Shown one piece after another: positions 8,043-30,130 of a stretch of 64,000 bases of DNA. The DNA comes from an uncultured Blautia sp. (GTDB lineage: Bacteria; Bacillota; Clostridia; Lachnospirales; Lachnospiraceae), in the NCBI GenBank assembly GCA_934364795.1, contig CAKRMK010000003.1, forward strand, positions 81,770 through 145,769, read 5' to 3'. The translations under genes and the position numbers were made by a program. Position 1 is the first letter of the stretch; each line of letters begins with the position of its first letter. Below the pieces are notes generated by a model. That model ran no database searches, was not told the origin of the DNA, and saw only the letters and a list, made by a program, of their open reading frames with translations.

Positions 8043-8779
8043 AACATTCCCCCGTCAACACACAAAACCTGTCCTGTAATATACCCGGCTTCCGAAGATG
8101 CAAAAAAGGCAACTGCTTTTGCCACATCTGCTGGATCTCCAAAAGCTCCCATGGGAATATTTTTTAAAGTTTCTTCTTTTACCTTATCAGAAAGCACATC
8201 TGTCATATCCGTTCTGATAAAGCCAGGAGCAACAGCATTTACTGTGATTCCCCGTGATGCAAGCTCTTTTGCTGCGGTCTTTGTAAGCCCGATAATCCCG
8301 GCTTTTGATGCCGCATAGTTGGCCTGACCGGGATTTCCTCCGATGCCAACAACAGATGCCATATTTACAATTCGTCCACTGCGCTGTTTCAACATCTGGC
8401 GTGCAACATGCCGAATACAGTTAAAAGTTCCCTTAAGATTCGTGTCTACTACTTTATCAAAATCTGCCTCACTCATCCCTAACAGAAGCCCGTCTTTTGT
8501 AACTCCGGCATTGTTTACTAAGATATCAATCTGTCCGTATGTTTTGATAACTTTTTTGATAAATTCCCCACATGCATCAAAATCTGCCACATTGCACTGG
8601 AATGTTTCAGCCATTTTGCCCCCGGCTTCTATTTCTTCTTTTACTGCTTTTGCTTTTTCTTCTGAACCATTATAATTTATGATTACAAGTGCTCCCTGAC
8701 TGGCAAGTTCAAGGGCAATTGCTCTTCCAATTCCGCGGGAAGCACCTGTTACTACTGCAATTTTTTTGTCTGTATTCAT
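8039..8779 (-). CDS. fabG: 3-oxoacyl-ACP reductase FabG
   Basis: A 246-residue short-chain dehydrogenase that reduces 3-oxoacyl-ACP with NADPH. It shows the dinucleotide loop [13 protein letters not shown], the NNAG motif, the catalytic serine in VNMASVVG, and YAASKAG with catalytic Tyr and Lys. The family-typical C-terminus ends in [12 protein letters not shown]. The nearest purine-rich ribosome site (GGAG) is about 13 bases from the ATG, longer than its neighbours' spacing, yet no better start is present because the dinucleotide fold begins at once. Confidence 0.95.
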
Positions 8780-8816
8780 ATGCTTGTTTTTTGCTCCTGC
8801 TTACTATTTCTGCTAC

Positions 8817-9725
8817 TTATTTCATTATCTGCTCTAAATCTTCTGTTGTCTGAATATTATATGTCTTTACCTCTGGTGCAATCTTTTTCATAAACCCAGC
8901 CAGAGTCTTTCCAGGTCCGATTTCCACAAATGTATCTACGCCTTCTGTAATCATTTTTTCCACACTCTGCTGCCATCTTACAGAAGAAGAAATCTGTCTT
9001 GCAAGAAGCTCTTCTGTTTCTTTGATATCTGTTACATATTCAGCAGTTACATTGGTTACATATGGAATTTTTAAAGGATTGAATTCTACTTTTTCCAATT
9101 CCTTTTTCAGTTTTTCTCCTGCATCCCGAAGCAGTGAAGAATGAAATGGACCGCTTACCACAAGAGGTAAAACTCTTCTTGCGCCAGCCTCTTTCAGCTT
9201 TAAAGAAGCCTCTTCTACAGCTGTTTTTGGACCTGTAATTACGATCTGGCCGGGACAGTTATAATTGGCAATTTCTGCTTTTGTACCGGAAATTACAGTT
9301 TCAATTGCCTGTGCCTCCAGACCAAGAACTGCAGCCATAGAACCCTGACCAGCCGGAACTGCCTGTTCCATAAGGATCCCTCTTTTTCTTACAGTTGTAA
9401 TGGCATCTTTCACACTCATACCGCCTGAAACGGAGATTGCACAGTATTCTCCAAGGCTTAAGCCTGCAGTTACATCTGGATGAATTCCATACTCTTCTAC
9501 TACTTTTTCCATCGCAAGACAGGTAGTAACCAACGCAGCCTGAGTATATTCTGTAAGGTTAAGTCTGTCATTTTTTTCAAAACAAAGTGCTTTCATATCA
9601 AGAGAAAGCCACTGGCTTGCCTGATCAAAAATCTCTCGGGCAGAAGGATATTTTTCATAAAAGTCCTGTCCCATACCAGCTTTTTGAGCACCTTGTCCAG
9701 GAAAAATAAATGCAATCTTACTCAT
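8817..9725 (-). CDS. fabD: Malonyl-CoA:ACP transacylase FabD
   Basis: A 302-residue transacylase that loads malonyl groups from CoA onto ACP. The N-terminus FIFPGQGAQKAGMGQDF is diagnostic. The nucleophile is S90 in AGLSLGEYCA, and the second catalytic residue is the histidine in VVSGPFHSSLL. The ATG overlaps the end of fabK by 8 bases and has an AAAGGAACCGGAA ribosome site. Confidence 0.96.
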   Translation of the reverse strand: MSKIAFIFPGQGAQKAGMGQDFYEKYPSAREIFDQASQWLSLDMKALCFEKNDRLNLTEYTQAALVTTCLAMEKVVEEYGIHPDVTAGLSLGEYCAISVSGGMSVKDAITTVRKRGILMEQAVPAGQGSMAAVLGLEAQAIETVISGTKAEIANYNCPGQIVITGPKTAVEEASLKLKEAGARRVLPLVVSGPFHSSLLRDAGEKLKKELEKVEFNPLKIPYVTNVTAEYVTDIKETEELLARQISSSVRWQQSVEKMITEGVDTFVEIGPGKTLAGFMKKIAPEVKTYNIQTTEDLEQIMK

Positions 9726-10925: not shown

Positions 10926-10972
10926 TTTATTGTTCTCCTTTTTCTTTAACTTGTATGATTTCTGCGGTTATT

Positions 10973-11941
10973 TTACCAGTTCAGCAAACTGGCACCGTAA
11001 GTAAATCCCCCTCCAAATCCGGAAAAAACGAGCCAGTCACCTGTGTTTAATCTTCCTTTTTTGTTCCATTCATCCAGAAGAATGGGGATACTTGCAGAGG
11101 AAGTATTTCCTAGCATTTCTATGTTCATCGGAAACTTTTCCAAAGGTTCTTTCAGATGTTTTGCAACAGAAAAAACAATTCTCTGGTTGGCCTGATGAAG
11201 CATATAATAGCGAATATCTTCTTTATTTTTTCCAGCTTTTTTCAACACTTCCTGAATCACTTCCGGAACTTTTGAAACAGCAAATTTGAATACTTCTTTG
11301 CCGTCCATCCGCATATAGGTAGAAGAAAAATCTGGGTTTTTTGTTACGTATTCCGGTTGATTTCTGCTGTCACAGGTGAGGGCTTTTCCTCCATTTCCAA
11401 TGGAATGCGTAGCCTGAATATATGTGGCAGACTCTTCTGCTTCCAGTACTACAGCACCTGCGCCATCTCCAAATAACACACATGTACTTCGGTCCTGCCA
11501 GTTTGTAAGATGGGAAAGTGCTTCTGCACCGATCACCAGCGCAGTACGGTAAATTTGCTGTCCCAGATATGCCTGCGCTGTATTTAATGCCACCAAAAAG
11601 CCAGTACAGGCACTGTTTAAATCAAAACAAGTGGCATTATCTGCACCGATTATTTCCTGTACCTGACAGGCTGTACACGGCATTATTTTTTCTGCTGACA
11701 TGGTAGAAACCAGTATCAGATCAATTTCATCCGGCTGCATCTTTGCTGCTTCAAGTGCAGCCTGGGCTGCTTTGGATGCCATCTGGGAAACGGTTTCAGC
11801 CTTTGTTGCAATATGTCTTTGACCAATTCCGGTTCGTCCACGGATCCACTCATCACTTGTATCCATCATGTGGGATAATTTATTGTTATCCCACACCTGA
11901 ACCGGCCTGTAAGAACCGGTTCCCTTTATTTTTCCAAACAT
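10973..11941 (-). CDS. fabH: 3-oxoacyl-ACP synthase III (KAS III), chain initiation
   Basis: A 322-residue thiolase-fold enzyme that condenses an acyl-CoA primer with malonyl-ACP. The catalytic residues are C112 in LNSACTGF, the histidine in MLHQANQRI and the asparagine in MLGNTSSAS. It is the first gene of the operon, with a GGAGG ribosome site and a strong promoter plus FabT-like operator upstream. Substrate preference (straight or branched primers) cannot be read from the sequence. Confidence 0.96.
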   Translation of the reverse strand: MFGKIKGTGSYRPVQVWDNNKLSHMMDTSDEWIRGRTGIGQRHIATKAETVSQMASKAAQAALEAAKMQPDEIDLILVSTMSAEKIMPCTACQVQEIIGADNATCFDLNSACTGFLVALNTAQAYLGQQIYRTALVIGAEALSHLTNWQDRSTCVLFGDGAGAVVLEAEESATYIQATHSIGNGGKALTCDSRNQPEYVTKNPDFSSTYMRMDGKEVFKFAVSKVPEVIQEVLKKAGKNKEDIRYYMLHQANQRIVFSVAKHLKEPLEKFPMNIEMLGNTSSASIPILLDEWNKKGRLNTGDWLVFSGFGGGFTYGASLLNW

Positions 11942-14705: not shown

Positions 14706-14800
14706 GTATATCCTCCAATCAAAATCAGTTGCTTTTATGCAAAATAGATTTTTCAATCATGCATTCAAATCTATATTTATTTTACATCAACTGTCTTATG

Positions 14801-14829
14801 TTGCACAATCTTTTTTTATTGGGTATAAT
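14801..14829 (+). promoter_or_regulatory. Sigma-A promoter of the DUF2142 gene
   Basis: TTGCAC (14801-14806), 17-base spacer, TATAAT (14824-14829), about 90 bases upstream of the ATG at 14920. The region 14706-14919 separates two divergent genes and holds no other gene. Confidence 0.8.
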
Positions 14830-14919
14830 ACTCTAAAATACACAGACTGCAGGTTATCTTTTTATAGCAATATAGTTTACATAAAGCGGCCAGACAGTCA
14901 GAACTATGGAGACAAAAAA

Positions 14920-16917
14920 ATGAATCAAACACGGAAAATGCCCAAGCACTTATGTGCCTTTTTTATTCTGCTATGTGCAATCAGCGGAATTTGTATTCTG
15001 GTTTATAAAAGCCAGTTTCGCTTTGATCTGCACCAGCCGATCCAGTATATCATGATGACTACTCACAAGGACACGCAGGAGGTAATACTTTCCCAGGATT
15101 CCCCCCAGTTGTCCGAAAGTTTCCTCTGCACGGTTCCTGAATTGAAAAAATTTTCCATGGAATGCAGTGTCCAAAATGTAAATTCAAAGGCAAAACTTTC
15201 TATAACTTTGTCAAATGCCAATACCGGAGAAATTTATTATCACTCCAGAAAAAAGGTCAAAACTTTCCAGTCAGAGGACTCTCATACTATTAAATGTGGT
15301 CTGGATGAAAACTTTTTTCCAGATGAGGGAGCATTATTAACACTCACACTGGAACTGGAAAATGCTCAGGATACCACACTGAATTTTACTGCCAACAAAA
15401 AACAGACCCTTGTAAAATCCTTTAATTTTGACGAAAATGAACGCACAAATATTATTTATTCCCTTAGTTACGGTGACAACAATTTTATGTTTTATCTGTA
15501 CATTATCCTGTGCGTTATGCTGCTTTTCCTGACAGGCTTAAGTTTTTATCTGATCATTGTACGCCATAAAAAAGTACAGCAGTTTTTTATTCCAATAGCC
15601 TTATCTCTTGGAATTATTTTTCAAGGGCTGATCACAGTTCACGGAGTTCCTGATGAACCCACGCACCTTGATACTGCCTATAAGTATTCTAATCAAATAC
15701 TTTTGGTAGGGAACCCTGATGTTCCAGGTACTATTTACAAACGTGAGTGTGACGCCAAGTTAAGTGACATGTTAAGTAATGGTCTGGAAAGTAACTCTTA
15801 TTACCAATTACTGTACCATACCTTTGAACGTGCATCAGATACCAACCTTATTACCGTCACCTATTCTGATGCCTCCCATCTGGTACCCGCCATTGTATAT
15901 TTTCCTGCGGCACTTGGTATCAGCGTTGGCAGAATTCTGGGACTTTCTGCAATGTTTACGTATCAGTTAGGAAGGGTGTTTAACCTGATCGCATTTATCC
16001 TTCTGGTGCAATGTGCCATCTGCATTACACCTTATTGGAAAAACCTTTTCGCTACATTAGGAATCCTTCCAATAACCTTACAACAGGCAGCTTCCGCTTC
16101 ATATGATGCTATTATAAACGGAATTATCTTTCTTTTTATTGCCATGTGTTTCCTGTTATCAGGCAGCACACAGCACAAAAAAAGCCAGTTAATTCTTACT
16201 GGATTATTTGCCCTTTTTGTTGCTTCTGTAAAAGGCGGAGTTTACCTTCCGCTTCTGCTGCTTTTACTCTTGTTTATTCCACATAAGCATAGAGAAAAAA
16301 GCTGGAAAAAGCTGATTATCAAGCTCCTTCCAGTAGCAGTAATTGGTATATTTTTCATCGTTATAGCACTTATAAAGTTTATGCCTCTGCTGTCTAATCT
16401 GTTCGCTGCAGATGCAAATCCAGACCCGGAGACATCACTGTATTCAATCTCCTATGTACTCCACAATCCACTGCAGACCGTTTATCTTCTCTGGAATACC
16501 CTAATAAAAGTAGGAGATGATCTTATCCGCGGTATGTTCGGAGGTATGCTTTCCTGGCTGGATGTAAAAATGAACTGGTTCTTTATCATTATTTTCCTTA
16601 TCAGCACATTGCTACTGATAAATACAAAAAATGACAGCCATTATTTTTCCAGAAAAAAAAGGATGCTTATCACAATGAGTTATCTTTGCTCCAGCTTACT
16701 GATTATACTTTCTATGCTTGTGGGCTATACCAAGATGAAATACAATTATATCCAGGGGCTCCAGGGACGTTATTTCATCCCATTTGCTCCTGCAATGTTC
16801 TCTCTTGCCACCACAAAAATGGTATCCGTTGATGCAAAGCAATGCTCCAGAATCTGGGAAATTATCATGATTACAGAGATACTGTTGATATTAGAAACGA
16901 CCACTATGATCCTATAG
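14920..16917 (+). CDS. DUF2142-family polytopic membrane protein, candidate GT-C glycosyltransferase
   Basis: A 665-residue membrane protein. ATG 14920 follows GGAGA; the frame is open from 14737 without a ribosome site. There is one N-terminal membrane helix (about 10-32), a roughly 170-residue extracytoplasmic domain, then about ten further helices. The motif HGVPDEPTHLDTAYKYSN after the second helix matches the DUF2142 signature (PDEP-H), resembling the acidic first-loop motif of GT-C enzymes that use polyprenyl-phosphate sugars outside the membrane. It is convergent with the envelope polysaccharide operon and has its own promoter. I infer that it transfers a sugar onto the exported polymer, the sugar donor being made by the GT2/DUF2304 pair at 33-34 kb. 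Direct functional proof for this family is lacking. Confidence 0.75.
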   Translation: MNQTRKMPKHLCAFFILLCAISGICILVYKSQFRFDLHQPIQYIMMTTHKDTQEVILSQDSPQLSESFLCTVPELKKFSMECSVQNVNSKAKLSITLSNANTGEIYYHSRKKVKTFQSEDSHTIKCGLDENFFPDEGALLTLTLELENAQDTTLNFTANKKQTLVKSFNFDENERTNIIYSLSYGDNNFMFYLYIILCVMLLFLTGLSFYLIIVRHKKVQQFFIPIALSLGIIFQGLITVHGVPDEPTHLDTAYKYSNQILLVGNPDVPGTIYKRECDAKLSDMLSNGLESNSYYQLLYHTFERASDTNLITVTYSDASHLVPAIVYFPAALGISVGRILGLSAMFTYQLGRVFNLIAFILLVQCAICITPYWKNLFATLGILPITLQQAASASYDAIINGIIFLFIAMCFLLSGSTQHKKSQLILTGLFALFVASVKGGVYLPLLLLLLLFIPHKHREKSWKKLIIKLLPVAVIGIFFIVIALIKFMPLLSNLFAADANPDPETSLYSISYVLHNPLQTVYLLWNTLIKVGDDLIRGMFGGMLSWLDVKMNWFFIIIFLISTLLLINTKNDSHYFSRKKRMLITMSYLCSSLLIILSMLVGYTKMKYNYIQGLQGRYFIPFAPAMFSLATTKMVSVDAKQCSRIWEIIMITEILLILETTTMIL

Positions 16918-17109: not shown

Positions 17110-19176
17110 TCAATTGCCTGATTGTTCCTCTGATAATTCAAATATACTGTCAACTCTGTGTTTCCGGTCAACTACATTATTATACTGCAAAACTTTATAA
17201 TCATTAATGAGATTTTCATACTCTTCCGGAAGAGAATCCATTGCATACCAGTTTCCATCTGCATCACAAACAGCTCCCATTCCGATGACCGGCAGGGTTT
17301 CTTTTAACTGAAGAAGGAACTTATTATATGTTGTCATTTCCAGTCCTGCCTGTTCCAGAATATAACTTCCAAAATAGTTGGCACTCATGTCCTCTTCGCC
17401 GGATTCAGAAGGGTAATTTGTCCAGATCACATATGGAGTTTTATAGGTCTGTTGTTTTTCTACCAGATCTAAAGTACTAAAATCTTCTCCCATAACATCA
17501 CTATAAAATCCCCAGTCCAGGCTGGGCCAGTGATCACCAAACATTACAATCATGGTAGGTTCATCGACTTCTTTAAAGAAATCAAGAAGCTTCATAAATG
17601 TGTCATCTGACTTTTTCGCCAGTGACAGATAAATTTCTGCATCCGGGTATTCCTGTGCATAAGACAGCTTCACATCTGCGGTAAATTTCTTGCTTTTTTC
17701 CGGATCATAACTTCCATGATTCTGAATTGTTACACAAAACATAAACTGATTTTCATTTTCTTTATTCTTATATAATACCTTCAGTTTTTTATAAGCGGAA
17801 GAATCTCTTACATACCATCTGTAATGTTTCGGATCATCTCCCCAGTTATCTATGCTGATAAAATCCTCGAAATTCATCCAGGAGTAAACATTGACACGGT
17901 TCCATGCACTTGCCCAGGAAGGGTGTATTGCCGTAGAAGTATAGCCTTCCTGCTCCATTGTATTTGCCAGACCAAATTCATTTTCATTGCAATACAACTG
18001 ATATGCAATTCCACCATTAGGCAAAAACTCTTTGGTATTTCCAGTTAAAACTTCATATTCTGTATCAGAAGTTCCCCCTCCAAAAGCAGGTACATACAAG
18101 TAACCTTTTTTCGTATTTTCCTGTAAACTGTGAATGCCTGGAAGAATCTCTTCTGATGCCTGAAAATTGTCATACGCTTCAAAATCAGTAAGACTTTCAT
18201 TCATAATTACAATCAGATTTTTCGGCACAATCTGTGTTTTTGTTCCTTCTGAAGCATTATCGTCAGCATTTGCCTTTTCTTCTGTTGAAGCATTTTCCTG
18301 CACTGTTTCTACGATTTTATTTACCTGCTCTGTGGAATAATTCTCTGGTTTTTCAATCTCCAGATACTGTGTTTCACAGGCCAGTTTGTATATGTAACCT
18401 TTATTCGTATACTCTCCTGCAGTATCCCACTGATCAACCCTTTCACCAGCAATTGTGTTCCAGTTTTTTCCAACTCCAACAATCAAAACAGCCACTATTC
18501 CAAGACGTATCACATACCCTTTTACGTTTCTTTTTCCTGCTTCCAGTGACTGGAAAATCAGCTGATAGATAAGAAAAATCAGCATTCCCAGTAAGCAGAT
18601 TCCAGTCTCCACCGGAAGTTTAAAGCTGTAATTTCCTGCAACATCAGTTGCCGTACCAATACCAAAAACATCCATCAAAGTGAATGCATTTCCTCTGAAA
18701 GAAGTAACAAAATAATCCACTAAAGCCAGAATAAGCTGCACAATCGTATATAAAGAAATTGCAACAGAAGCCTTTCTGAAAATCATCAAAAACAGAATAT
18801 ATGCAGCATAATATAACAGCAGATTTTTCAGCAAATATTCTGTCTGCATGGAATATGTTCCCGCACCGATCAACAGCTGCACCATAAACAGCATAAGTAC
18901 AGGAGTTCCCAGAGCAGTCAGGATATTAACAGCTTTTACCCAATATTTATGACAAAATTTTCTTCTGTATTTGCCCTGAAACAGAATTAACATTAAAATT
19001 GCAACATTCTCCAGAAGCAGCAAAATCCCCTTTTTTACTCCCAGTTCTGTAAAAAATCCAACCTCTGAACTCCGTGCAAATAAGTATACACATGCATCAA
19101 TTGTAATAAGTACTACCAGCAAAAACAGAGAATAAATCTTATCAAATTTACTGGTTTTCATGTTTTCTTCTATCAT
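17110..19176 (-). CDS. LtaS/GacH-like membrane phosphoglycerol transferase (copy 1)
   Basis: A 688-residue protein with about six N-terminal membrane helices (to about residue 240) and an extracellular sulfatase-fold domain (about 315-640). Metal- and nucleophile-type residues of the LtaS family are present: Glu327 in VIMNESLTDF, Thr369 in FGGGTSDTEYEVLTG, and Asp-His in MFGDHWPS. LtaS moves glycerol-phosphate from phosphatidylglycerol; the related GacH decorates the streptococcal group A carbohydrate with glycerol-phosphate. Lying at the end of a glycosyltransferase operon, it is more likely a polysaccharide-modifying enzyme than a lipoteichoic acid synthase (inference). The start at 19176 follows AGGAAGAGGAA. 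A near-identical paralogue lies 25 bases upstream. Confidence 0.87.
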   Translation of the reverse strand: MIEENMKTSKFDKIYSLFLLVVLITIDACVYLFARSSEVGFFTELGVKKGILLLLENVAILMLILFQGKYRRKFCHKYWVKAVNILTALGTPVLMLFMVQLLIGAGTYSMQTEYLLKNLLLYYAAYILFLMIFRKASVAISLYTIVQLILALVDYFVTSFRGNAFTLMDVFGIGTATDVAGNYSFKLPVETGICLLGMLIFLIYQLIFQSLEAGKRNVKGYVIRLGIVAVLIVGVGKNWNTIAGERVDQWDTAGEYTNKGYIYKLACETQYLEIEKPENYSTEQVNKIVETVQENASTEEKANADDNASEGTKTQIVPKNLIVIMNESLTDFEAYDNFQASEEILPGIHSLQENTKKGYLYVPAFGGGTSDTEYEVLTGNTKEFLPNGGIAYQLYCNENEFGLANTMEQEGYTSTAIHPSWASAWNRVNVYSWMNFEDFISIDNWGDDPKHYRWYVRDSSAYKKLKVLYKNKENENQFMFCVTIQNHGSYDPEKSKKFTADVKLSYAQEYPDAEIYLSLAKKSDDTFMKLLDFFKEVDEPTMIVMFGDHWPSLDWGFYSDVMGEDFSTLDLVEKQQTYKTPYVIWTNYPSESGEEDMSANYFGSYILEQAGLEMTTYNKFLLQLKETLPVIGMGAVCDADGNWYAMDSLPEEYENLINDYKVLQYNNVVDRKHRVDSIFELSEEQSGN

Positions 19177-19201: not shown

Positions 19202-21229
19202 TCAGCCTGCCAGTTCAAATATATCATCAACTCTGTGCTTTCTGTCAACTACGTTATTGTACTGCAGGATTTTATAATCATTTACAAGATCTTTGTATTC
19301 ATCTGGAAGGTCATTTAATACATACCAGTTTCCTTCTGTATCGCATACAGCCCCGGTTCCGACTACCGGTAATTTCTCTTTTAGCTGTAAAAGGAACTTA
19401 TTGTAGGTTGTCATTTCCAGTCCGGCCTGTTCCAGGATGTAGCTTCCAAAATAATTGGTACTCATATCCTCTTCTCCGGATTCTGATGGATAATTTGTCC
19501 AGATTACATATGGAGTTTTCCTTGTCTGCTGCACACCTTCCAAATCTAATGCGTTATAATCTTTTCCCATCACATCACTGTAAAATCCATCTTCCAATTT
19601 AGGCCAGTGATCTCCAAACATAACGATCATAGTAGGTTCATCAACTTCTTTAAAATAGTCCAGTAATTTCATAAATGTTTCATCAGATTTTTTTGCTAAT
19701 GACAAATACATTTCTGCTTCTGGATAATCCTCATCGTATGATAAACTAATATCTGCTTCAAAGTTATTACTTGTTTCTTCACTATATCCACCATGATTTT
19801 GTATTGTTACGCAAAACATAAATTGATTATCATTATCTTTATTCTTACATAATTTTTTTATCATTTTAAAAGCAGACGAATCTCTTACATAATAACGATA
19901 ATACTTAGGTTCATCGCCCCAGTTTTCCAGACTTATAAAATTCTCAAAGTTCATATAGGAATAAACCTTCTGACGGTTCCATCCGCTAGCCAGCAGAGGA
20001 TGTATTGCTGTTGTTGAATACCCTTCCTCTTCCAGTGTATTTGCCATTCCATATACCTGACTTTTACAATATAACTGGTATGCAACTGCACCATTTGGGA
20101 AAAATTCTTTCGTATTTCCAGTAAGAACTTCATACTCTGTATCAGCAGTACCACCACCAAATGCAGGCACGTACAAATACCCTTTTTTTGTATTTTCACT
20201 TAAACTATGTATCCCTGCAAGTATTTCATCTGACGCCTGAAAATTTTCAAATTCTTCAAAATCAGCAAGACTTTCATTCATAATTACAATGAGATTTTTA
20301 GGAACAATTTTATCTTTTTCAGAATTCAGCTGACTACTTTTTTCTTCCACAAAAGCCACAATTTCTTGTACACGTTCAGTAGAATATCCTTCTGGTTTTT
20401 CAATCTCCAAATACTGTGATTCACACGCTAATTCATATATAAATCCCTTGCTTTTATAATCTTCCACAGTTTCCCATTGTCCTACACCTTCAGACGCAAG
20501 AGCACTCCAGCCTCTCCATATTCCCACAAAAACAATTGCAAAAATTGACAGTCTGATCATATAGCCTTTTGCATTTCTTTTTCCAACTTCCAGACATTGA
20601 AAAACAACCTGATATGCAAGAAAAATCACTACTCCTAACAAGCATATTCCCATTTTTACAGGCAGCTTTAAAGTATAGTTTTCTGCCACGTTAGCCGCTG
20701 TTCCAATATTAAATACATCCATCAGCATAAGTGCATTTCCGCGGAATAACGTTACAAAATAATCAGCCACCGCTACAAATACTAATACTATAGTATACAA
20801 AGATATTGTTACAGATACTTTTCGACAAATTAAAAGCATCAGCATATACAATAAATAATACAAGACTAAATTTTTCACATAATAATCAGACTGAACTAAA
20901 AAACTGTTTTCACTGATTATTAACTGTACCAAAATAAAAACACCAACCGGAGTCAGCAGTGCTGTTACTATATTCACCAATTTAATTACAAAATTCTTGT
21001 GCCAAAGTTTCTTCCACTTGTTTTGTCCGAATACCAGAGCAAAAATCACAACATGTTCCAACACTATTACAATTGTTTTTTTTGTTCCAAGTTCTGTAAA
21101 AAATCCTACTTCTGAATTTATCGCAGTAAGTAAAATACCAACATCCACAACTCCTAATAATAAAAAAATTACAATAGCCGACAGAACTTTTGATTTACTT
21201 TTCTTCGTATTTTGATCCATCAAATTCAC
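19202..21229 (-). CDS. LtaS/GacH-like membrane phosphoglycerol transferase (copy 2)
   Basis: A 675-residue paralogue of the downstream gene with the same layout: about six membrane helices, then a sulfatase-fold domain with IMNESLADF, FGGGTADTEYEVLTG and MFGDHWP. The last 130 residues are almost the same as copy 1, while the region just outside the membrane (about 280-310) lacks the Glu/Ala-rich insert of copy 1. The start is GTG 21229, 5 bases after AAGGA; an ATG at 21220 is too far from it. Two copies may act on different positions or different polymers. The N-terminal half is visibly richer in A and T codons than copy 1. Confidence 0.87.
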   Translation of the reverse strand: MNLMDQNTKKSKSKVLSAIVIFLLLGVVDVGILLTAINSEVGFFTELGTKKTIVIVLEHVVIFALVFGQNKWKKLWHKNFVIKLVNIVTALLTPVGVFILVQLIISENSFLVQSDYYVKNLVLYYLLYMLMLLICRKVSVTISLYTIVLVFVAVADYFVTLFRGNALMLMDVFNIGTAANVAENYTLKLPVKMGICLLGVVIFLAYQVVFQCLEVGKRNAKGYMIRLSIFAIVFVGIWRGWSALASEGVGQWETVEDYKSKGFIYELACESQYLEIEKPEGYSTERVQEIVAFVEEKSSQLNSEKDKIVPKNLIVIMNESLADFEEFENFQASDEILAGIHSLSENTKKGYLYVPAFGGGTADTEYEVLTGNTKEFFPNGAVAYQLYCKSQVYGMANTLEEEGYSTTAIHPLLASGWNRQKVYSYMNFENFISLENWGDEPKYYRYYVRDSSAFKMIKKLCKNKDNDNQFMFCVTIQNHGGYSEETSNNFEADISLSYDEDYPEAEMYLSLAKKSDETFMKLLDYFKEVDEPTMIVMFGDHWPKLEDGFYSDVMGKDYNALDLEGVQQTRKTPYVIWTNYPSESGEEDMSTNYFGSYILEQAGLEMTTYNKFLLQLKEKLPVVGTGAVCDTEGNWYVLNDLPDEYKDLVNDYKILQYNNVVDRKHRVDDIFELAG

Positions 21230-21370: not shown

Positions 21371-24300
21371 TCATTTATTTAAAACTTCTGCAAATACATC
21401 AATATAACTGTCAACCATTTTATCCTGGTTGTAATTCATAATACTTGTCAAAGAAATAGCTCCCCGCTTTTCTTTCCATACAGCTATGTTATTAACCATT
21501 TCAGTCATTGCATCAACCATATCATCAACAGCTTTCGGATTCACTGCATTCATATCTGCTAATAATTTCTCTGCTGGGACAGATGCTATGTCTTCTTCCG
21601 GATTCGGTATTAAAATTCCATTTTCACCATTTTTTACCAGCTCTTTTCCGCTACCGCATAAAGAATGAATGATTGGGAGTCCTGTATATAAGGCCTCTGT
21701 TGCAGCAATACTCCATCCCTCAAAGAAAGATGGCATAACAAAGATATCTGCCGCTTTGTACAAATCACCAATCTCCCTGTGATAATTCAGCTTAATGATA
21801 TGACTTTTACATGCTGTCGCTTCAATAAAATCAGATACAACTCCGTCATAAAATTCACTTAACACATTTCCAACCAGAATCAAATAAGAATCTGGATCGA
21901 CTGTCATATTAAATCTCTCAAAAGCTTTCACTAAGCCCATCTGATTTTTTCTGCTGTCAATACTGCTGACATTTATAAAAACAGTACTTTTTTCAGGAAT
22001 TCCCAGTAAACTTCTTGTATAGTTCCTGTCATATCCTTTCACTTTATGAGGATCTGCTGCATTTCCTACAACCACAATTTTGTCTGAGGATGTTCCAAGA
22101 ACTCTCTTTTCATATATTTCTTTGACAATACTTGAAACAGCTATCATTTTTTCAAAATTTTTGCTTAACTTTTTCTCTGCTTTCAAAAATGCCTCATTTT
22201 GGAACACATACATATTATGAATCACTTCTACTATTGGAATATTATTAGCAACTACAATATCCAACATTTTCTTTGTGTAATGTGTATTAATAAGGATCGG
22301 CTTTTCTTCTTTTATGTACTGCTCAAATTTTTTGGAATCTCCAGCAAAATCAACAACTGTATATCCTTCTGCACTCAGCTTCCTTGCAACTTCACCACCC
22401 GTTGTTGTACATAACACCCTAACCTCAATTCCCCGCATGGAAAATTCTCTTACCAGATGTGCAACAACTTGTTCCAGTCCGCCTTTATCCAAAGAATCCA
22501 CCATCACCCCAACATATCCCTTTTTCAATACTGCTGGAGTCTCTATTTCTCTTTTTACAAGTGTTGGCGGGAATTTTCTTTCCTTGTGTTGTAATTTAAA
22601 GTCTGGTCTGTCAACCAAAATATCCTGTGCAATTCCATTTAAAAAGGCAATTATATTTTTTACAGCACCTGTAGTTGAATAGTACTCAATATAAGCATTA
22701 AGAATATTCTCTACATTTCCAATATTTTCAATTGTCTTTATACCAAGAAGCTTCTCTCCATAATAATAGCTGCTAACAAATGGAAGGGCATTCCTCATAT
22801 CCTGATCTGCAACCATGATCCATCTTCCAATATTCCATCCAAGTAAGATATATGGCATGATATCAATGTCATTTTTCAGCGGCGGAATAAACATTGCATT
22901 CCATGATGCATATACAAACATCTGATTTCCAAATTCTCTTTTTCCCATGAAAATAACATTTTCACAAGCTTTAGAAATTTTTTCCTGGGCTTCTGTTTCT
23001 CCCTCATTCAGGAGACAGAAGCTAAATAAAATATTTGGATTTGCTGAAATAAATTCAATTGTTTTCTCTACATCAATATCATTTAGATCAATATGAGTTC
23101 CCAGTACACTCATATTTACAAACTTAGCAGGATATTCCCAGAAAAGGCCCTCAATATAAGTCTGGCGTACTTTCTTCGCCAATGTATTCACATTAAATCC
23201 CTGGTAAATATTTGCTCGATTTTCGATCTGACCGTTATTATTTACCCAAACGCGGTAATATCCATTCTCTAAGTCCACTGCAAATTCTTTATCTTTTAGT
23301 GCTTTAATTTGCGCCTTATCTACAAACCTTACAGTTTTGGAACTCTTCTCTTTATATGAATAATTAAGATCATTCAAATTCTTTTCTAATAATTCACAAC
23401 CCTCTGCCTTTGGTTCAATTACTACATTCCAGCTCTTCTTTGCAAACTCATCTTTTAGCTGGCTGTACTCAATCATTTTTTTGGTTCGTTTTGAATGTTC
23501 CTCTAATTTATTTTTCAATAAATCTTCACTCATTGTATTTTCATGTACACGATAGCAATACAATGGAGTTTTATTATTCAAGTGAACAATTTCGCCAAAT
23601 GTTCGCAGTCTGATCCAGAAGTCATAATCTTCCAGACCTTCAAGATCTGCTGAATACTGACCCTTTAAGGCTTTTACAGGTGCAGCCTTATACATAAAGC
23701 ATGCATTGATAAAATTATCTGCCTCTGCATCTAACGCATCAGTACAATGTGGAAGTCTCATGATATATGGCAGTTGTGGATCTCTGTTCATTTCACGATA
23801 TCCAGTAGTCTTATATTTACCATTTTCATCAATAATCGCAACATCCGCATATACCATAACTGCATCTGGCTCTTCCAAAAGTTTATGTACTAATGTTGAT
23901 AACATTTCTTTTTCCATTACATTATCAGCAGAAGTCCAGGTTATAAACTCTCCAGTTGCAAGATTATGTAAATTAGTTAAACCATTTGGTAACCTTTGGT
24001 TATCCTGTGTATAAATTTTAATTCTTGGATCATTATTATAGTCTTTTAATATATCCAATAATCCGTCTGTTGAGCCATCATTTAATATGATTAATTCCCA
24101 ATTTGAATAAGTCTGATTCTGAACACCCTTAATGGCATCTTTAATAAAGGCTGCATGATTATATACTGGTAGCAAAACAGAAATCAGCGGCTCATCAGCA
24201 TATACCGGCAAGTTTACAGGAGCCTCTAAAACGTCCTGTGTGTCAATTACACAACGTTCGGAGGATGCTGTGGTGGAAACCCCAACTCTCGCAATCTGAA

Positions 24301-25759
24301 CTAAATTATCAATAGTTCGCGCATACTGAGCCACTTTAAAATTCATTCTGTAGTTATCAATTAGTAAATCATACTTCTTTCCTACAAGCCTTAAAGCCAT
24401 CTTTACAAGTATCTTTATCTTGTTTATAAACGGCTCCTGAACCAATGCACCTACAACTGCATGAACTGCAACAACTTTACTAAACCATTTGGCAGTAAAA
24501 ATATTACATATTCCGGCTGTAGCTCCTGTTATTTGCGGTAATATTTCACCACAGGTCTTGTCAATTTTGGAGCGGTACATTTCATTTTCTTCATTTTTCT
24601 TGCTTAAGGTCACGTTTAATTCTTTATTTTTATTTGAAATATCAGAAATGCACTCTTCTTTTTCTCTGATTGTGTTTTCTTTGTCTTCGATTGTAATTTC
24701 TTTTTCTTTGATTGCAACTTCTTTTTCTTCAATAAGCGCTTCTAATTTTTTCTTTTCTTTTTCAAAATCCTGAATGCGCTCCTGATATTTTTCAATTTCC
24801 GCAGTTAAATTCTGAATTTTACTGTCAGACAGATTTTTTTCCGACTTGTATCTTTCTATTTCAGCAACGAACTGTTTTTGTTCCTCTTCTTTTAACTCCT
24901 GATTTTCTTTTATTCTTTTTCTCAAAGAGAAGTTTTCTGCAGATTTTGCAAAAAACTGCTCCAATTCTATAGCTGGAGAACTGGTTTCTTCACTTCTTAC
25001 AGACTGTACTTTTTCTTCTGTCTCCTCAGCTTTTCCTACAATATATGCAATTAAATAACTCTCATTTGGTGGCATTATACCATCATCAACTATAGATTTA
25101 TATATTTTTCTGTTTGGATCTTTTAAGAATGTAGATTCAAAATGCCATATGGAAATACTTGAAGCAGCATATCCGAGTACTCTTCCGGACAATCCTGCTT
25201 TTTGGGCTATATCCAGATAATTTCTCCGCATATATTCCTGTCCATATTCCCATCTTCCCTCACCTTCCAAATTATATCTCATAAGAAGATAAGAAATACT
25301 ATCTGGATTAGGGACTAAGAAAATAAACTTATTTTTCATTACGTTGCAAATCTGTTCGAAAATCTTCTGAAGATTTTCGTCATTGAAATGCTCCATAACA
25401 CCACTGTTCCATACAAAATCATATTTAGATGTCACAGAACTTAGATCAAATAAATCTGCCTCTATAAATTCACCGTTTAAATTATATTTTTCAAATGTTT
25501 GCCTTGATTTTTCTAATGCCCCAGTACTGAAATCCAGCAATGCAACATTATATCCTTTCTGGGCAAGGCATGCAGATAAATGACCGCTTCCTGAACCTAA
25601 CTCCAGCAGTCTTGCAGGTGGATATATCTTTTCTTTCTGTAAAAGCTTATATATCTCTTCTGCATATAAACGTTCATCGTCATTAATTTCAATTGTATAA
25701 TCTAAACTTACATTGTCCCAGGTTTCTTTCGTGGGCATTCCCTCTACAGTATTGCTCAT
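21371..25759 (-). CDS. Methyltransferase / coiled-coil / GT2 / GT4 fusion protein, polysaccharide assembly
   Basis: A 1462-residue multidomain protein. Residues about 40-245 form a class I SAM methyltransferase (motif I LLELGSGSGH at 51-60, then ALLDFSTG). Residues about 275-400 are a highly charged heptad-rich coiled coil of Glu/Lys/Ile. Residues about 523-745 are a GT2 domain (ISVLLPVYNHAAF, ILNDGSTDG, an ADN in place of DXD near 612, and the ED catalytic-base motif in LEGLEDYDFW). Residues about 840-1070 are not clearly recognised but look like part of a degenerate GT-B fold. Residues about 1079-1462 are a GT4 domain with the E-x7-E motif (SFFEGWSIAATEALY). It lies 19 bases downstream of the Wzt-like ATPase. 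In O9a-type systems a methyltransferase with a coiled-coil ruler caps the chain; this fusion may do the same (inference). Confidence 0.88.
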   Translation of the reverse strand: MSNTVEGMPTKETWDNVSLDYTIEINDDERLYAEEIYKLLQKEKIYPPARLLELGSGSGHLSACLAQKGYNVALLDFSTGALEKSRQTFEKYNLNGEFIEADLFDLSSVTSKYDFVWNSGVMEHFNDENLQKIFEQICNVMKNKFIFLVPNPDSISYLLMRYNLEGEGRWEYGQEYMRRNYLDIAQKAGLSGRVLGYAASSISIWHFESTFLKDPNRKIYKSIVDDGIMPPNESYLIAYIVGKAEETEEKVQSVRSEETSSPAIELEQFFAKSAENFSLRKRIKENQELKEEEQKQFVAEIERYKSEKNLSDSKIQNLTAEIEKYQERIQDFEKEKKKLEALIEEKEVAIKEKEITIEDKENTIREKEECISDISNKNKELNVTLSKKNEENEMYRSKIDKTCGEILPQITGATAGICNIFTAKWFSKVVAVHAVVGALVQEPFINKIKILVKMALRLVGKKYDLLIDNYRMNFKVAQYARTIDNLVQIARVGVSTTASSERCVIDTQDVLEAPVNLPVYADEPLISVLLPVYNHAAFIKDAIKGVQNQTYSNWELIILNDGSTDGLLDILKDYNNDPRIKIYTQDNQRLPNGLTNLHNLATGEFITWTSADNVMEKEMLSTLVHKLLEEPDAVMVYADVAIIDENGKYKTTGYREMNRDPQLPYIMRLPHCTDALDAEADNFINACFMYKAAPVKALKGQYSADLEGLEDYDFWIRLRTFGEIVHLNNKTPLYCYRVHENTMSEDLLKNKLEEHSKRTKKMIEYSQLKDEFAKKSWNVVIEPKAEGCELLEKNLNDLNYSYKEKSSKTVRFVDKAQIKALKDKEFAVDLENGYYRVWVNNNGQIENRANIYQGFNVNTLAKKVRQTYIEGLFWEYPAKFVNMSVLGTHIDLNDIDVEKTIEFISANPNILFSFCLLNEGETEAQEKISKACENVIFMGKREFGNQMFVYASWNAMFIPPLKNDIDIMPYILLGWNIGRWIMVADQDMRNALPFVSSYYYGEKLLGIKTIENIGNVENILNAYIEYYSTTGAVKNIIAFLNGIAQDILVDRPDFKLQHKERKFPPTLVKREIETPAVLKKGYVGVMVDSLDKGGLEQVVAHLVREFSMRGIEVRVLCTTTGGEVARKLSAEGYTVVDFAGDSKKFEQYIKEEKPILINTHYTKKMLDIVVANNIPIVEVIHNMYVFQNEAFLKAEKKLSKNFEKMIAVSSIVKEIYEKRVLGTSSDKIVVVGNAADPHKVKGYDRNYTRSLLGIPEKSTVFINVSSIDSRKNQMGLVKAFERFNMTVDPDSYLILVGNVLSEFYDGVVSDFIEATACKSHIIKLNYHREIGDLYKAADIFVMPSFFEGWSIAATEALYTGLPIIHSLCGSGKELVKNGENGILIPNPEEDIASVPAEKLLADMNAVNPKAVDDMVDAMTEMVNNIAVWKEKRGAISLTSIMNYNQDKMVDSYIDVFAEVLNK

Positions 25760-25778
25760 TATCGCTTTCCTTTCCTAT

Positions 25779-27125
25779 TTAGACAGACCATGTATGTTCC
25801 ATTTGGAATAAACCAAATTCTTTATTTGAATATTTAGAAAACATATGAATCTGTTTTCCATACCTGATTTCATCATAAACCTCTGAATTTTTGGAATAAA
25901 CACCTGCGTTAATCCAATATTTTCCCTCAAGTAATCTTATGTTTTTCAGCTGTAATTCCACAGTGCGTGTTCCATTAATTGTAATTAACTCATTTTTCTC
26001 TGTATAAATGTCCGTTCCATAACAATATACATCATCATCACGCCAAACACTAACAGCAAAACGAACAGGAATATCTTTCTCTTTACTTGAAAGCGTACAT
26101 TTTATTCTTAATGTATCCCCTGTTTCATATACCTTCTTCTCTTCATTATCTGCGTTGCAGACAGAAAGTTTTTCTATTATTACCTTTCTGTTTCCAATTC
26201 TGACTAAATGCTCATCATAATCACGGTTTTCAACAGAAACGGTTTCTGCTGTTGTACTAGATTCTGCAACTTCTGTTTTAATGTTTTCCGTTTTTGCTTC
26301 TTCTATTTTAACTTCTGGTTTATTAGTTTTCCTGGCTAAATTTTCCGTTTTTGACTCTTTTGCCTCTTCTTCATACCGCTGTTTTCTTTTTTCTTCCATT
26401 TCCTGGAAATAGTGTGCATTAACTACTCTAGGATTTCCATCTTCAGCGATTTTACCATCTCGAATCCAGATACTTCTGTCACAAATCTGTTCAATTTGTT
26501 CAAGAGAATGAGAGACAATAACAATTGTTGTTCCCTGTTGTTTAATTTCCTGCAATTTTTCAAAACATTTTTTCTGAAAGCTTACATCACCAACACCAAG
26601 AATTTCATCGATCAATAAAACTTCAGCTTCTACATTAATCGCAACAGAAAAAGCCAATCGCATATACATTCCAGATGAATAAGTTCTTACCGGATTTTCA
26701 ATAAATTCTTCCAATTCAGAAAACTCAATAATCTTATCTACTTTCCTGTCTATTTCCTTTTTAGTAAGTCCAAATACAGACGCATTCAGATATATATTTT
26801 CCCTTCCACTCATGTCAGGATGAAAACCTGCTCCAAGTTCCAGAAGGCTTGACACTTTTCCTTTAATCTTTATGCTTCCGGTATCTGGGAAAATAATTCT
26901 GGTTAACATTTTTAAAGTGGTACTTTTTCCACACCCATTTTTTCCAATTAATCCAACAGCTTCACCTTTTTTTACATTAAAAGAGATGCCGTTTAATACA
27001 TCTCTTTTCTGATATTTCGCCTTTCCCAAAATGGATAAGCGGTCTTTTAATGTTTTTCCTTTGTCATAATATACCTTAAAGCTTTTGGTAATATTATCTA
27101 CTTCAATAGCATTTTCTTCATGCAT
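25779..27125 (-). CDS. Wzt/TagH-like ABC ATPase with C-terminal carbohydrate-binding domain
   Basis: A 448-residue ATPase that powers export of a lipid-linked polysaccharide. Walker A is GLIGKNGCGKSTT (about 58-70), the signature YSSGMYMRLAFSVA, and Walker B EVLLIDEILGVGD. After a charged Lys/Glu linker (about 240-305) comes a beta-rich domain of about 140 residues (from RIGNRKVIIEKL to the end) of the Wzt C-terminal type. In O9a and similar systems that domain recognises the chemically capped end of the finished chain. Plain TagH proteins lack it. Only 2 bases separate it from the permease gene. Presence of the tail, with a methyltransferase encoded next door, supports cap-dependent export. 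Confidence 0.9.
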   Translation of the reverse strand: MHEENAIEVDNITKSFKVYYDKGKTLKDRLSILGKAKYQKRDVLNGISFNVKKGEAVGLIGKNGCGKSTTLKMLTRIIFPDTGSIKIKGKVSSLLELGAGFHPDMSGRENIYLNASVFGLTKKEIDRKVDKIIEFSELEEFIENPVRTYSSGMYMRLAFSVAINVEAEVLLIDEILGVGDVSFQKKCFEKLQEIKQQGTTIVIVSHSLEQIEQICDRSIWIRDGKIAEDGNPRVVNAHYFQEMEEKRKQRYEEEAKESKTENLARKTNKPEVKIEEAKTENIKTEVAESSTTAETVSVENRDYDEHLVRIGNRKVIIEKLSVCNADNEEKKVYETGDTLRIKCTLSSKEKDIPVRFAVSVWRDDDVYCYGTDIYTEKNELITINGTRTVELQLKNIRLLEGKYWINAGVYSKNSEVYDEIRYGKQIHMFSKYSNKEFGLFQMEHTWSV

Positions 27126-27127
27126 AT

Positions 27128-27907
27128 TTACAGCTCCTCAACAAATTTTCGTTGCATCTTTCCAAATCCTAAACAGCCTATAACTAATGCAGCTATTCCA
27201 ATTATTGCAGCCTGTACAAGCGTATCCACATATGGTGTCTGTTTATAATATAAAATCTGCTGATATGCCTCTATTATTGGCGTCATTGGATTCAAATTAA
27301 ATACTGTTTTAATACTGTCCGGAACAATGTCTGCAGTATATAAAATTGGTGTCAGATACATCCATGCCATAGTGATAATTCCCATAATATATTCCAAATC
27401 TCTGAAATATACTGCTAAAGCAGAGGTCAGCATACAAATTCCCAAAGCCAAAATATATTCTATGATCATAACAATTGGCAAAAAGAGTAGCGCTGCAAAA
27501 TTCAATCCATAGCCTGAAAAAATTAATACAACAAAAATAACAATAAATGTAAGCAACATGTTAATAAACATACTTGTTACATAAGAGATCGGAAGAATAA
27601 TTCTCGGAAAATATATTTTTTTTATCAAGTTTTCCTGATTAACTACACATGTTGCACCACTTGTTACAGAAATACTAAAAAAATTCCACGGGACCAGACC
27701 AACAAATAGAAAAATAGGGAAATTTTCAATTCCTGACTTTAATATAAATGAAAATACTAATATATATACCAGCATTTGAAGCAATGGATTCATTAGTGTC
27801 CACAAAAAGCCAAGTACCGAGGCTTTATATTTTCCGCGAAGTTCTCTTTTTATCAAACTAGCGATCATCTCTCGATAATCATATAATTCCTTCATGCCAT
27901 TAATCAT
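27128..27907 (-). CDS. Wzm/TagG-like ABC-2 permease for polysaccharide export
   Basis: A 259-residue permease with about six membrane helices. The N-terminal amphipathic segment LIKRELRGKYKASVLGFLWTLMNPLLQML is characteristic of the Wzm/RfbD/TagG family (given here only as a family pattern). I start it at ATG 27907 with GGAAGAGAA just upstream; the frame is open to 27964 inside the epimerase gene, but that start has no ribosome site. It overlaps the epimerase stop by 8 bases and is followed after 2 bases by its ATPase. Confidence 0.92.
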   Translation of the reverse strand: MINGMKELYDYREMIASLIKRELRGKYKASVLGFLWTLMNPLLQMLVYILVFSFILKSGIENFPIFLFVGLVPWNFFSISVTSGATCVVNQENLIKKIYFPRIILPISYVTSMFINMLLTFIVIFVVLIFSGYGLNFAALLFLPIVMIIEYILALGICMLTSALAVYFRDLEYIMGIITMAWMYLTPILYTADIVPDSIKTVFNLNPMTPIIEAYQQILYYKQTPYVDTLVQAAIIGIAALVIGCLGFGKMQRKFVEEL

Positions 27908-29012
27908 TTCTCTTCCACTCCAGTAAATGAGCAGCAATTCTCTCACTCGCATGTCCGTCTCCATACGGATTCACTGCATGTGCCATTTTCTCATACTCTG
28001 ACACATTATCAATCAGATTTACTGCCTCATTAAAGATAACATCCTCATCAACACCGATGACCTTGACTGTACCAGCTTCTACTGCCTCCGGGCGCTCTGT
28101 CTCTGTACGAAGCACAAGTACCGGAACACCGCAGGATGGAGCTTCTTCCTGAAGTCCGCCGGAATCTGTCATTACCAGGAAACTACGATCCATCATATTA
28201 TGCATATCTTCAACATCCAGCGGAGCAACCAGATGCACTCTGTCTACACCATCAAGTACGCGATGTGCAACTTCCTGTACAGCCGGATTCAGATGTACCG
28301 GATATACAACTTCGATATCGTCATATTTTTCAACAATACGTTTTACTGCTTTGCAGATATTCTCAAGCGGCTGTCCCAGATTTTCTCTTCTGTGTGCAGT
28401 CATAAGAATGCATTTCTTATTTTCAAGATCTACACTCTCAAGACCTTTCTCTTTAAACTTATATCCCTCTTTTACAGTGGTCTTAAATGCATCAATAACT
28501 GTATTTCCTGTTACAAAAATGTTTTTGCTGATACCTTCACGAAGCAGATTGTTTTTGTTGTTTTCTGTAGGGGCAAAATGAAGATCCGCAATTCTTCCTG
28601 TAAGACATCTGTTCATTTCTTCCGGGAATGGTGAATATTTGTCATAGGTTCTAAGTCCTGCTTCCACATGCCCAACCGGAATCTGCTGGTAAAAAGCAGC
28701 CAGTGCAACAACAAAGGATGTAGTTGTATCACCATGTACCAGGACAATGTCAGGTTTTTCCTCGATTAATACTGGTTCAATTTTCTCCAGAATGCTGCTG
28801 GTAATAGTGGTAAGGGTCTGTCTTGGTTTCATGATATTTAAGTTGTATTTTACATTTGTTCCAAAAATATCAATTACCTGCTGAAGCATCTCTTTATGCT
28901 GGCCGGTTAAGCATACTACGCTTTCAATTCCTTCTGTTTCTTCCAGCACCTTCACTAACGGGCACATTTTAATTGCCTCTGGACGGGTTCCGAATACACT
29001 CATTACTTTCAT
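27900..29012 (-). CDS. wecB: UDP-N-acetylglucosamine 2-epimerase (non-hydrolysing)
   Basis: A 370-residue enzyme that interconverts UDP-GlcNAc and UDP-ManNAc. It shows the N-terminal VFGTRPEAIKMCPL, the active-site HGDTTTSFVVALAAFY, AGLRTYDKYSPFPEEMNR and the UDP-binding TDSGGLQEEAPSCGVPVLVLR. The start is ATG 29012 with GGAG 8 bases before it. It implies that ManNAc or a derivative is in the polymer or its linkage unit, as in wall teichoic acids. No UDP-ManNAc dehydrogenase is in the window, so ManNAcA is not indicated. Confidence 0.95.
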   Translation of the reverse strand: MKVMSVFGTRPEAIKMCPLVKVLEETEGIESVVCLTGQHKEMLQQVIDIFGTNVKYNLNIMKPRQTLTTITSSILEKIEPVLIEEKPDIVLVHGDTTTSFVVALAAFYQQIPVGHVEAGLRTYDKYSPFPEEMNRCLTGRIADLHFAPTENNKNNLLREGISKNIFVTGNTVIDAFKTTVKEGYKFKEKGLESVDLENKKCILMTAHRRENLGQPLENICKAVKRIVEKYDDIEVVYPVHLNPAVQEVAHRVLDGVDRVHLVAPLDVEDMHNMMDRSFLVMTDSGGLQEEAPSCGVPVLVLRTETERPEAVEAGTVKVIGVDEDVIFNEAVNLIDNVSEYEKMAHAVNPYGDGHASERIAAHLLEWKRND

Positions 29013-29031
29013 TGTGTGTTCTCCTTTCATC

Positions 29032-30093
29032 TCACTCAATGTACTTTTTAAGTTCTCTATATCGAATATTCCAACTGTTTTCTCTCAAAAATTCAGCCTG
29101 TTCTTCAGCTGAATAATCTGGCTTTGCACTGCCTTCCATAACCTTCTTAAGGCAGTCCAGGAACTCTTCTTCTGTCTTATAAAAATTCACGAAGTCGGAA
29201 AACCGCTCAACCTCATCATACTGTACAGAAATAATCCTCTTTCCCATACTTATGTACTCATAAAGTTTAACCGGATCAACGTCTCTTATAATGTCATTTA
29301 CCTGAAAAGGCATAATAAGACAGTCCATATCACGGACATTTTCCCACAGCTTACTGTGCTCTACAACGCCCTGCAATTTTATCCTGGGATTGGCAGGTGC
29401 TTCAATGCCAGATACAGGTCCCCATAGATAATACTCCAAATCAGGATAGTTTTCCAGGCTTTTCAGCAAAAGTGAAAAATCAAACCATTCTGCAACAGTT
29501 CCAAAATAGCCTATCCTGTATGTTTTTTTCTCTTTCTGTTTTTCTGTTGACGGCGGATATATCTTATCAGACACAAATCCATTTCGGATCAGAGCAACCT
29601 TTTCTTTTCCTCCGAAGCTCTGCATCTTTCTGACCAGTCCATTGCTGCTTGCAAAAATGACATCCGCTCTGCGAACTAATTCCGGCTCTGTACGTCTTAT
29701 TTCCTTCTGTATAATCCTGTCACCACACAGAGCTTCATAATTGTCCATACAATCATATATGATCTGCCCTCTGTAAGATTTCGGCACATACCGGTACAGC
29801 AGCGGGTTTCCTATCCAGACCATATCGTACTCCTGCACATGCTTCATTACTTTATGAAACATTGCCTTCTGCACTATATAAGTCAGTTTATTTTTATCTC
29901 TATATGGGATTGCCGGGACAGCAATGCTTTTTTCCAGCTCATCATTATCTTTACGTAAAGACTGCTTTACAAACAGCTCTTTGTAATATGCTACTGTAAC
30001 ATCATAGTCTCCTGCCAGCATCTGGGCAATAATCTGGGGACGCTGTTTGATCCAATACCAGTCAATCCCCATTAAATACAAAATTTTTTTCAT
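29032..30093 (-). CDS. GT-B glycosyltransferase, TuaH-like
   Basis: A 353-residue glycosyltransferase with the N-terminal pattern DWYWIKQRPQIIAQ found in TuaH-type teichuronic-acid enzymes and relatives. It also has IIYDCMDNYEAL and a C-terminal GT-B donor site around KLYEYISMGKRIISV. GGGA lies 6 bases before ATG 30093; the alternative ATG at 30099 overlaps that site. It ends 19 bases before the epimerase start. A possible independent promoter lies upstream at 30151-30179. Donor and acceptor are unknown. Confidence 0.85.
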   Translation of the reverse strand: MKKILYLMGIDWYWIKQRPQIIAQMLAGDYDVTVAYYKELFVKQSLRKDNDELEKSIAVPAIPYRDKNKLTYIVQKAMFHKVMKHVQEYDMVWIGNPLLYRYVPKSYRGQIIYDCMDNYEALCGDRIIQKEIRRTEPELVRRADVIFASSNGLVRKMQSFGGKEKVALIRNGFVSDKIYPPSTEKQKEKKTYRIGYFGTVAEWFDFSLLLKSLENYPDLEYYLWGPVSGIEAPANPRIKLQGVVEHSKLWENVRDMDCLIMPFQVNDIIRDVDPVKLYEYISMGKRIISVQYDEVERFSDFVNFYKTEEEFLDCLKKVMEGSAKPDYSAEEQAEFLRENSWNIRYRELKKYIE

Positions 30094-30130
30094 TGACATT
30101 CCCTATCATTAATTCCTATGATTTCACTTT

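Follow-up and report, generated by a model that had tools for sequence, protein, structure and literature searches.

A stretch of 64,000 nucleotides from an uncultured Blautia sp. (assembly GCA_934364795.1, contig CAKRMK010000003.1, positions 81,770 to 145,769; hereafter the window, numbered from its first letter) contains at 21371-25759 a single open reading frame (ORF) of 1462 residues without a stop, encoding a fused methyltransferase and glycosyltransferase protein. Like the other window features described below unless stated otherwise, the gene lies on the minus strand. In order along the chain, the protein comprises a methyltransferase, a coiled coil, a cationic amphipathic helix, a GT2 glycosyltransferase (GT), an unclassified middle domain, and a GT4 glycosyltransferase. 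Genes for a Wzt ATPase, a Wzm permease, a UDP-N-acetylglucosamine (UDP-GlcNAc) 2-epimerase, and a TuaH-like glycosyltransferase are found upstream in the same orientation. An earlier note on this DNA had described one chain with methyltransferase, coil, GT2, and GT4 beside a Wzm and a Wzt with a Wzt_C tail; the ORF reading and Pfam annotation confirm the former, and Pfam likewise the latter.

The head of the chain (25010-25759; residues 1-250), proposed here as the capping enzyme, is a class I S-adenosylmethionine (SAM) methyltransferase that matches PF13649 at residues 52-143 with 59.5 bits against a cutoff of 27. The earlier note had allowed that this domain might be catalytically dead; because the SAM motif ELGSGSG and the acidic residue of LLDFS are both retained, it does not look so from its sequence. 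No Pfam kinase domain was found anywhere in the 1462-residue chain. Structure prediction, which the earlier note had proposed as a check, was carried out with AlphaFold in two overlapping parts of the chain, and recovered both a helical coil and a compact glycosyltransferase block. In the model, the last strand of the methyltransferase fold ends at residue 243, and the coil follows as helices spanning residues 266-306 and 312-422.

This coil (24494-24964; residues 266-422, mostly helical) is the proposed ruler. Its extent had been put at about 125 residues, correctly: a single heptad register is held for ~125 residues, from about 280 to 405, with a maximum score of 2.17 by a COILS-type method. 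None of 200 shuffled sequences reached this score, and the maximum within the glycosyltransferase part of the protein was 1.26. The 150 residues between the coil anchors correspond to about 22 nm. Within the coil, Tandem Repeats Finder identified a DNA tandem repeat with a period of 21 bp, or one heptad (24656-24729; 3.5 copies, 83% matches, score 99). After the coil lies the cationic amphipathic helix FINKIKILVKMALRLVGK (24377-24430; residues 444-461), with a hydrophobic moment of 0.59 and a net charge of +5; the model predicts a helix at 444-458, and K449, K453, and R457 are nearly invariant in relatives. These properties make it a possible candidate for contact with the membrane.

The strongly conserved GT2 module (23450-24196; about residues 522-770) matches PF00535 at residues 527-680 (93 bits, E 2.6e-26), and the GT4 module (21374-22504; residues 1086-1462) matches PF13439 and PF00534 at residues 1093-1393. 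The middle domain that separates them (22505-23449; residues 771-1085, about 315 residues) matched no Pfam family above cutoff. All three are modeled as one compact block (residues 506-1462, pLDDT 90, pTM 0.88). The possibility that the middle domain represents a worn half of a GT-B fold was rejected, as hhalign comparison with the GT4 part gave a probability of 1.3%. The middle domain is conserved in the family, and is also observed behind the same GT2 in split proteins at two further loci (L007 and L008).

The adjoining Wzt (25779-27125) consists of an ATP-binding cassette (ABC) ATPase (PF00005) with a carbohydrate-binding Wzt_C tail (PF14524) at residues 309-442, the latter scoring 61.1 bits against a cutoff of 30.4; the best match to the ATPase part is 8dku, a 404-residue ABC transporter chain (E 3.4e-71). 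The Wzm permease (27128-27964; PF01061, ABC2_membrane, E 4.9e-20) is 72% identical to its relative at locus L001. Its start is more likely to lie at 27907 than at 27964, the former being an internal methionine that yields 259 residues, the same length as the L001 relative. Of 22 loci, 13 were listed, and 8 of these contain a relative of the 2-epimerase (27900-29039; PF02350, 403.1 bits). Because this enzyme is present in the window, with relatives in other loci, UDP-N-acetylmannosamine (UDP-ManNAc) is suggested as a donor and ManNAc as a component of the polymer. No dTDP-rhamnose donor genes were recognized among the 29 distinct ORFs scanned with Pfam, a subset of the ORFs in the window.

At least 23 of 96 protein matches, the window's own entry included, combine methyltransferase, GT2, middle domain, and GT4 in a single chain, with identities of 33-100%; scoring in this search was limited to the 7984 candidates with the most words in common. 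A second protein search using alignment A1 at E 1e-100 returned 29 proteins, none of them additional. Scanning genomes with the window protein alone identified no relative, and scanning with A1 identified 20 loci; a scan of viral sequences gave two weak matches only. The methyltransferase-GT2-GT4 order was observed in a Lachnospiraceae genome (L001) and in metagenome-assembled genomes (MAGs) assigned to Defluviitaleaceae (L002), Anaerolinea (L003), Myxococcales (L004 and L005), and Phycisphaerales (L011). As to the fusion across Lachnospiraceae, which the earlier note had raised, it is present at L001, but chains that include the middle domain are rare: within the sample of L001's family, they appeared in 1 of 397 genomes, namely the centre itself, and in other samples in 1 of 391 and 1 of 395 (each again the centre itself) and 2 of 196 (both already known). 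A methyltransferase profile matched 3 of 299 genomes, with long open frames solely in that of L001 (1503 and 691 residues) and frames of 342 and 247 residues in the other two. Methyltransferase-coil-transferase chains are common: of 68 matches bearing a methyltransferase, 63, including named Paenibacillus proteins, score for a coil in the 300 residues that follow this domain.

If the length of the coil were free to be tuned, a variable coil would be expected beside a constant remainder. Across 22 full-length relatives, the coil (measured from the SAE motif to the AKWFS motif) ranges from 83 to 224 residues, and the distance from GT2 to the C-terminus from 921 to 944; the large change in length is confined to the coil. 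These 22 proteins exclude P0029 (methyltransferase-headed, but too distant a relative for the anchors to be placed), L003, L004, and L011. Their coils have 18 distinct lengths, which form 153 pairs; 38 of these pairs are congruent modulo 7, as compared with 20.6 expected from jittered lengths (p 0.00125). Agreement was similar modulo 14 (p 0.00175), with p 0.06 modulo 11 and nothing for the remaining moduli from 3 to 15. Relatedness among the proteins weakens this test, and is only partly removed by the use of distinct lengths and of nearest-neighbor pairs. Eleven such pairs were formed, one of which was dropped for equal coil length; in the remaining ten, the difference in length was a multiple of 7 in five (binomial 0.008), 3 or 4 modulo 7 in four, and another value in one. 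Differences of 3 or 4 modulo 7 correspond to a stutter in a coiled coil. The close relatives P0008 and P0009 share 87% identity when the coil is set aside; their coils, of 97 and 118 residues, differ by exactly 21. In three of four such pairs, the coil alignment has gaps of 7 or 14 residues; in the fourth, P0001 and P0002, the coils of which have diverged, the gaps are 4, 23, and 1, with a sum of 28.

Repeats within individual coils show the same periodicity. Of 68 proteins, 14 have tandem duplications (at least 75% identity) in the first 300 residues behind the methyltransferase, and none has one further along. This distal part was searched in consecutive 300-residue blocks, so that a repeat spanning two blocks, or located in the final one, may have escaped detection. 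Register-preserving shuffles yielded no tandem duplications. The smallest period is divisible by 7 in ten of the 14 proteins and by 11 in two; in the other two it is 17 and 32. A looser repeat count, with 15 of 18 at multiples of 7, included L001 and L002, which are duplicates of P0018 and P0027. At the DNA level, the three loci tested have repeat periods of 21 bp (window), 42 bp (L002), and 126 bp (L011). The L002 repeat (10945-11203; 6.2 copies, 94% matches) lies in the coil, and is a candidate for copy-number variation within a species.

The head of the protein also varies. Related polymerase parts carry one methyltransferase or two in tandem (as in P0013), and some chains have a different enzyme in this place: FkbM methyltransferase in P0026, polysaccharide pyruvyl transferase in P0102, and GNAT acetyltransferase in P0097. 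In this last protein, about 400 residues without an assigned family (from about 160 to 560) separate the head from the coil; they had no Pfam match at E 0.001, and by eye resemble TagB/TagF-type transferases. Coil scoring identified a clear segment in P0026 and short, weak segments in P0097 and P0102. The alternative heads are plausibly all able to modify a sugar, which would fit a capping role. A separate protein encoded in the same cluster as the L001 fused protein (5596-7656, plus strand) has two methyltransferase matches, no glycosyltransferase match, and by eye a coil-like stretch.

Among the loci examined that have Wzm and Wzt in the fetched stretch, four encode a GT2 protein headed by a methyltransferase (window, L001, L011, and L016), and in all four Wzt has a Wzt_C tail; the polymerase at L016 differs from the others. 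At L007 and L008, Wzt is 258 residues long and lacks the tail, and no Pfam methyltransferase was found in the three neighboring proteins scanned per locus. At L006, from a Clostridia MAG, Wzt_C and Wzm adjoin a GT4-GT2-middle-domain protein and a separate coil protein of 770 residues (6391-8703, plus strand). By eye, the latter resembles a WbdD-like methyltransferase-kinase-coil protein; this is no more than a visual reading, as its Pfam matches (PF08241, E 0.011; PF01636, E 0.065) fall below cutoff, and it had no PDB or PHROG match.

We consider it probable that one polypeptide, the fused protein, both polymerizes and terminates the sugar chain with the aid of a coiled-coil ruler, and that Wzm/Wzt exports the capped product. 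At the membrane end, the GT2 and GT4 modules would elongate a lipid-linked polymer in which ManNAc is probably present, with the amphipathic helix anchoring this end of the protein to the membrane. The coil, about 22 nm long and probably oligomeric, would keep the methyltransferase distant from the polymerase, such that a chain would be O-methylated at the nonreducing end, and cease to grow, only once its length allowed it to meet the enzyme. The Wzt_C tail would then pick out methyl-capped chains for export by Wzm/Wzt. The cap should be methyl and not methyl phosphate, because no kinase was found in the chain.

The coil might instead be an oligomerization rod or spacer, with the head capping or decorating a sugar chain whose length depends on Wzt/Wzm export or on the supply of substrate. 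Such a spacer would be consistent with the differing coil lengths of relatives as close as P0008 and P0009, with the fact that seven-residue steps would preserve the fold of a coiled coil whatever its function, and with the methylation activity of WsaE, the Geobacillus enzyme compared below, which in vitro is independent of chain length (PMC2943079). However, the order of head, coil, amphipathic helix, and polymerase matches that of the WbdD ruler and its relatives, and the alternative heads too sit on coil-bearing proteins (P0026 and, with weaker coils, P0097 and P0102); we regard a mere spacer as unlikely. Less probable still is a methyltransferase that acts on internal residues of every repeat, or on another acceptor, and does not terminate the chain. 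The long coil parting head from polymerase, the adjacent Wzt_C tail in each of the four transporter-bearing loci with such a head, and the assignment of the WsaE methyltransferase to a terminal cap (PMC2943079) all argue for termination; in favor of this alternative are the fold matches, which are to general class I enzymes, and the tandem methyltransferase modules of some relatives. A chance juxtaposition, or fused frames produced by gene prediction, is scarcely credible given one uninterrupted frame, the recurrence of the same order among the protein matches described above, and the confidently modeled GT2-middle-GT4 block.

Several observations weigh against the proposed ruler and terminator. 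The methyltransferase fold has only generic class I matches, and the Wzt_C tail taken alone has no convincing solved-structure match by sequence (best E 0.27). Five of the 68 methyltransferase-bearing proteins fall below the coil threshold; scoring likewise found no coil segment in P0024, P0030, P0098, P0099, P0100, and P0101, two of which, P0030 and P0098, have methyltransferase domains in precomputed Pfam annotation. The association between head and tail comprises six loci, one of which (L016) has the different polymerase. The earlier note had expected the fusion always to occur with a Wzt_C tail; this is the case in the window, L001, and L011, but L002-L005 have the methyltransferase head and no Wzm/Wzt in the fetched stretch, and so homologues without the tail, which the note regarded as refuting its idea, do in part occur. 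In the remainder of these genomes, neither Wzt_C nor Wzm was found for L002; for L004 and L005, Wzt_C was likewise absent, but each genome has a single Wzm match beyond the stretch; that of L003 has both, again outside the stretch. Because all four are MAGs, these absences are weak evidence.

What is new, as read from the sequences compared here, is two family-level patterns: a coil length that changes in seven-residue steps and an exchangeable head. The literature searched, mainly by title and abstract, contained no ruler evolving in heptad steps and no such set of alternative heads, and no paper on Wzt with Gram-positive chain termination in this family was evident from titles or abstracts. 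We propose, tentatively, that the ruler changes in heptad steps (7, 14, 21, or 42 residues, and sometimes hendecads) through in-register duplication or loss, together with plug-in exchange of the head. If so, chain length would shift in fixed steps over short evolutionary time, perhaps via repeat slippage, and the family would be a good system for studying the control of sugar-chain length in bacteria. Within the papers covered, the only systems in which a ruler is established as determining the length of a glycan are a few Gram-negative ones (E. coli O9 and Klebsiella O12; PMC11231755). A natural length series already exists here, with close relatives exactly three heptads apart, and one genetically tractable relative would allow the ruler to be tested in a Gram-positive organism. 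Head exchange, in turn, offers a route from sequence to the prediction of cap chemistry.

Other genes surround the cluster. The TuaH-like glycosyltransferase (29032-30099) matches NF047676 (E 5e-17, below the equivalog cutoff) and has no Pfam match. Downstream of the fused gene, two LtaS-like membrane proteins with a sulfatase fold are encoded at 17110-19176 and 19202-21229 (PF00884, E 7.5e-26 and 4.4e-29, respectively), the second of which also matches NF053595, a lipoteichoic acid synthase family (E 1.1e-10, below its cutoff); phosphoglycerol decoration of the exported chain by this pair is possible. Together with a DUF2142 membrane protein (14737-16917, plus strand), the pair flanks the cluster, and these proteins may decorate the exported polymer. 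Farther away, the window encodes fused carboxyltransferase subunits of acetyl-CoA carboxylase (2372-4096), for which the best identity among 21 genomes around that of L001 is 65%.

The earlier note had seen in this locus a different solution to the control of chain length in an organism without an outer membrane. This claim fails because WsaE, ORF6 of Klebsiella pneumoniae O7, and WbbB of K. pneumoniae O12 have been published as single-chain precedents. WsaE, from the S-layer glycan system of Geobacillus stearothermophilus NRS 2004/3a, combines a methyltransferase and two glycosyltransferases in one chain, within a system that has a terminal 2-O-methyl group and ABC export (PMC2943079; PMC3898925). 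As in the window, the methyltransferase is N-terminal to two glycosyltransferase modules, the gene lies downstream of wzm and wzt, and the host is Gram-positive, as that of the window probably is, judging by its closest gene matches. WsaE makes polyrhamnan from dTDP-rhamnose, and the passages covered do not mention a ruler; the likeness is drawn from the published description. At L002, an S-layer homology gene (8519-9622, plus strand) lies directly upstream of the fused protein, hinting at a WsaE-like S-layer link.

The capping glycosyltransferase of WbbB is a 3-deoxy-D-manno-oct-2-ulosonic acid (Kdo) transferase. WbbB resembles the window protein in combining polymerization, ruler, and termination in one chain, and differs in that its cap is added by a glycosyltransferase and is not methyl (PMC11231755). 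ORF6 of O7 shares with the window an N-terminal terminator methyltransferase, a coil, two C-terminal glycosyltransferase modules, and an ABC transporter; unlike the window protein, it has a kinase and a carbohydrate-binding module before the coil, a methyl phosphate cap, two GT2 modules, and a Gram-negative host (PMC11231755). The fusion of terminator, coil, and polymerase is called a widespread strategy by the authors of that work (PMC11231755).

The analogue named in the earlier note, WbdD of E. coli O9a, is not the closest, because no kinase domain was found in the window chain; WbdD has one, and is a protein separate from the polymerase WbdA (PMC5082667; PMC3482155). The two systems nevertheless share a methyltransferase head, a coil of about 20 nm, and a membrane-proximal end (PMC5082667; PMC3482155), and the window coil, at about 22 nm, is close to the WbdD ruler of roughly 200 Å given in a review (PMC5082667). 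In O9a, the carbohydrate-binding module of Wzt recognizes the terminated chain (PMC5082667; PMC3482155), and E. coli O8 is served by a homologue with a methyltransferase only (PMC3482155). The broader analogy to coiled-coil terminator systems stands: the features of that class appear in the window as a candidate terminator at the distal end of the predicted coil, a putative amphipathic helix after it, glycosyltransferase modules in cis at the proximal end, and an adjacent transporter with a Wzt_C tail.

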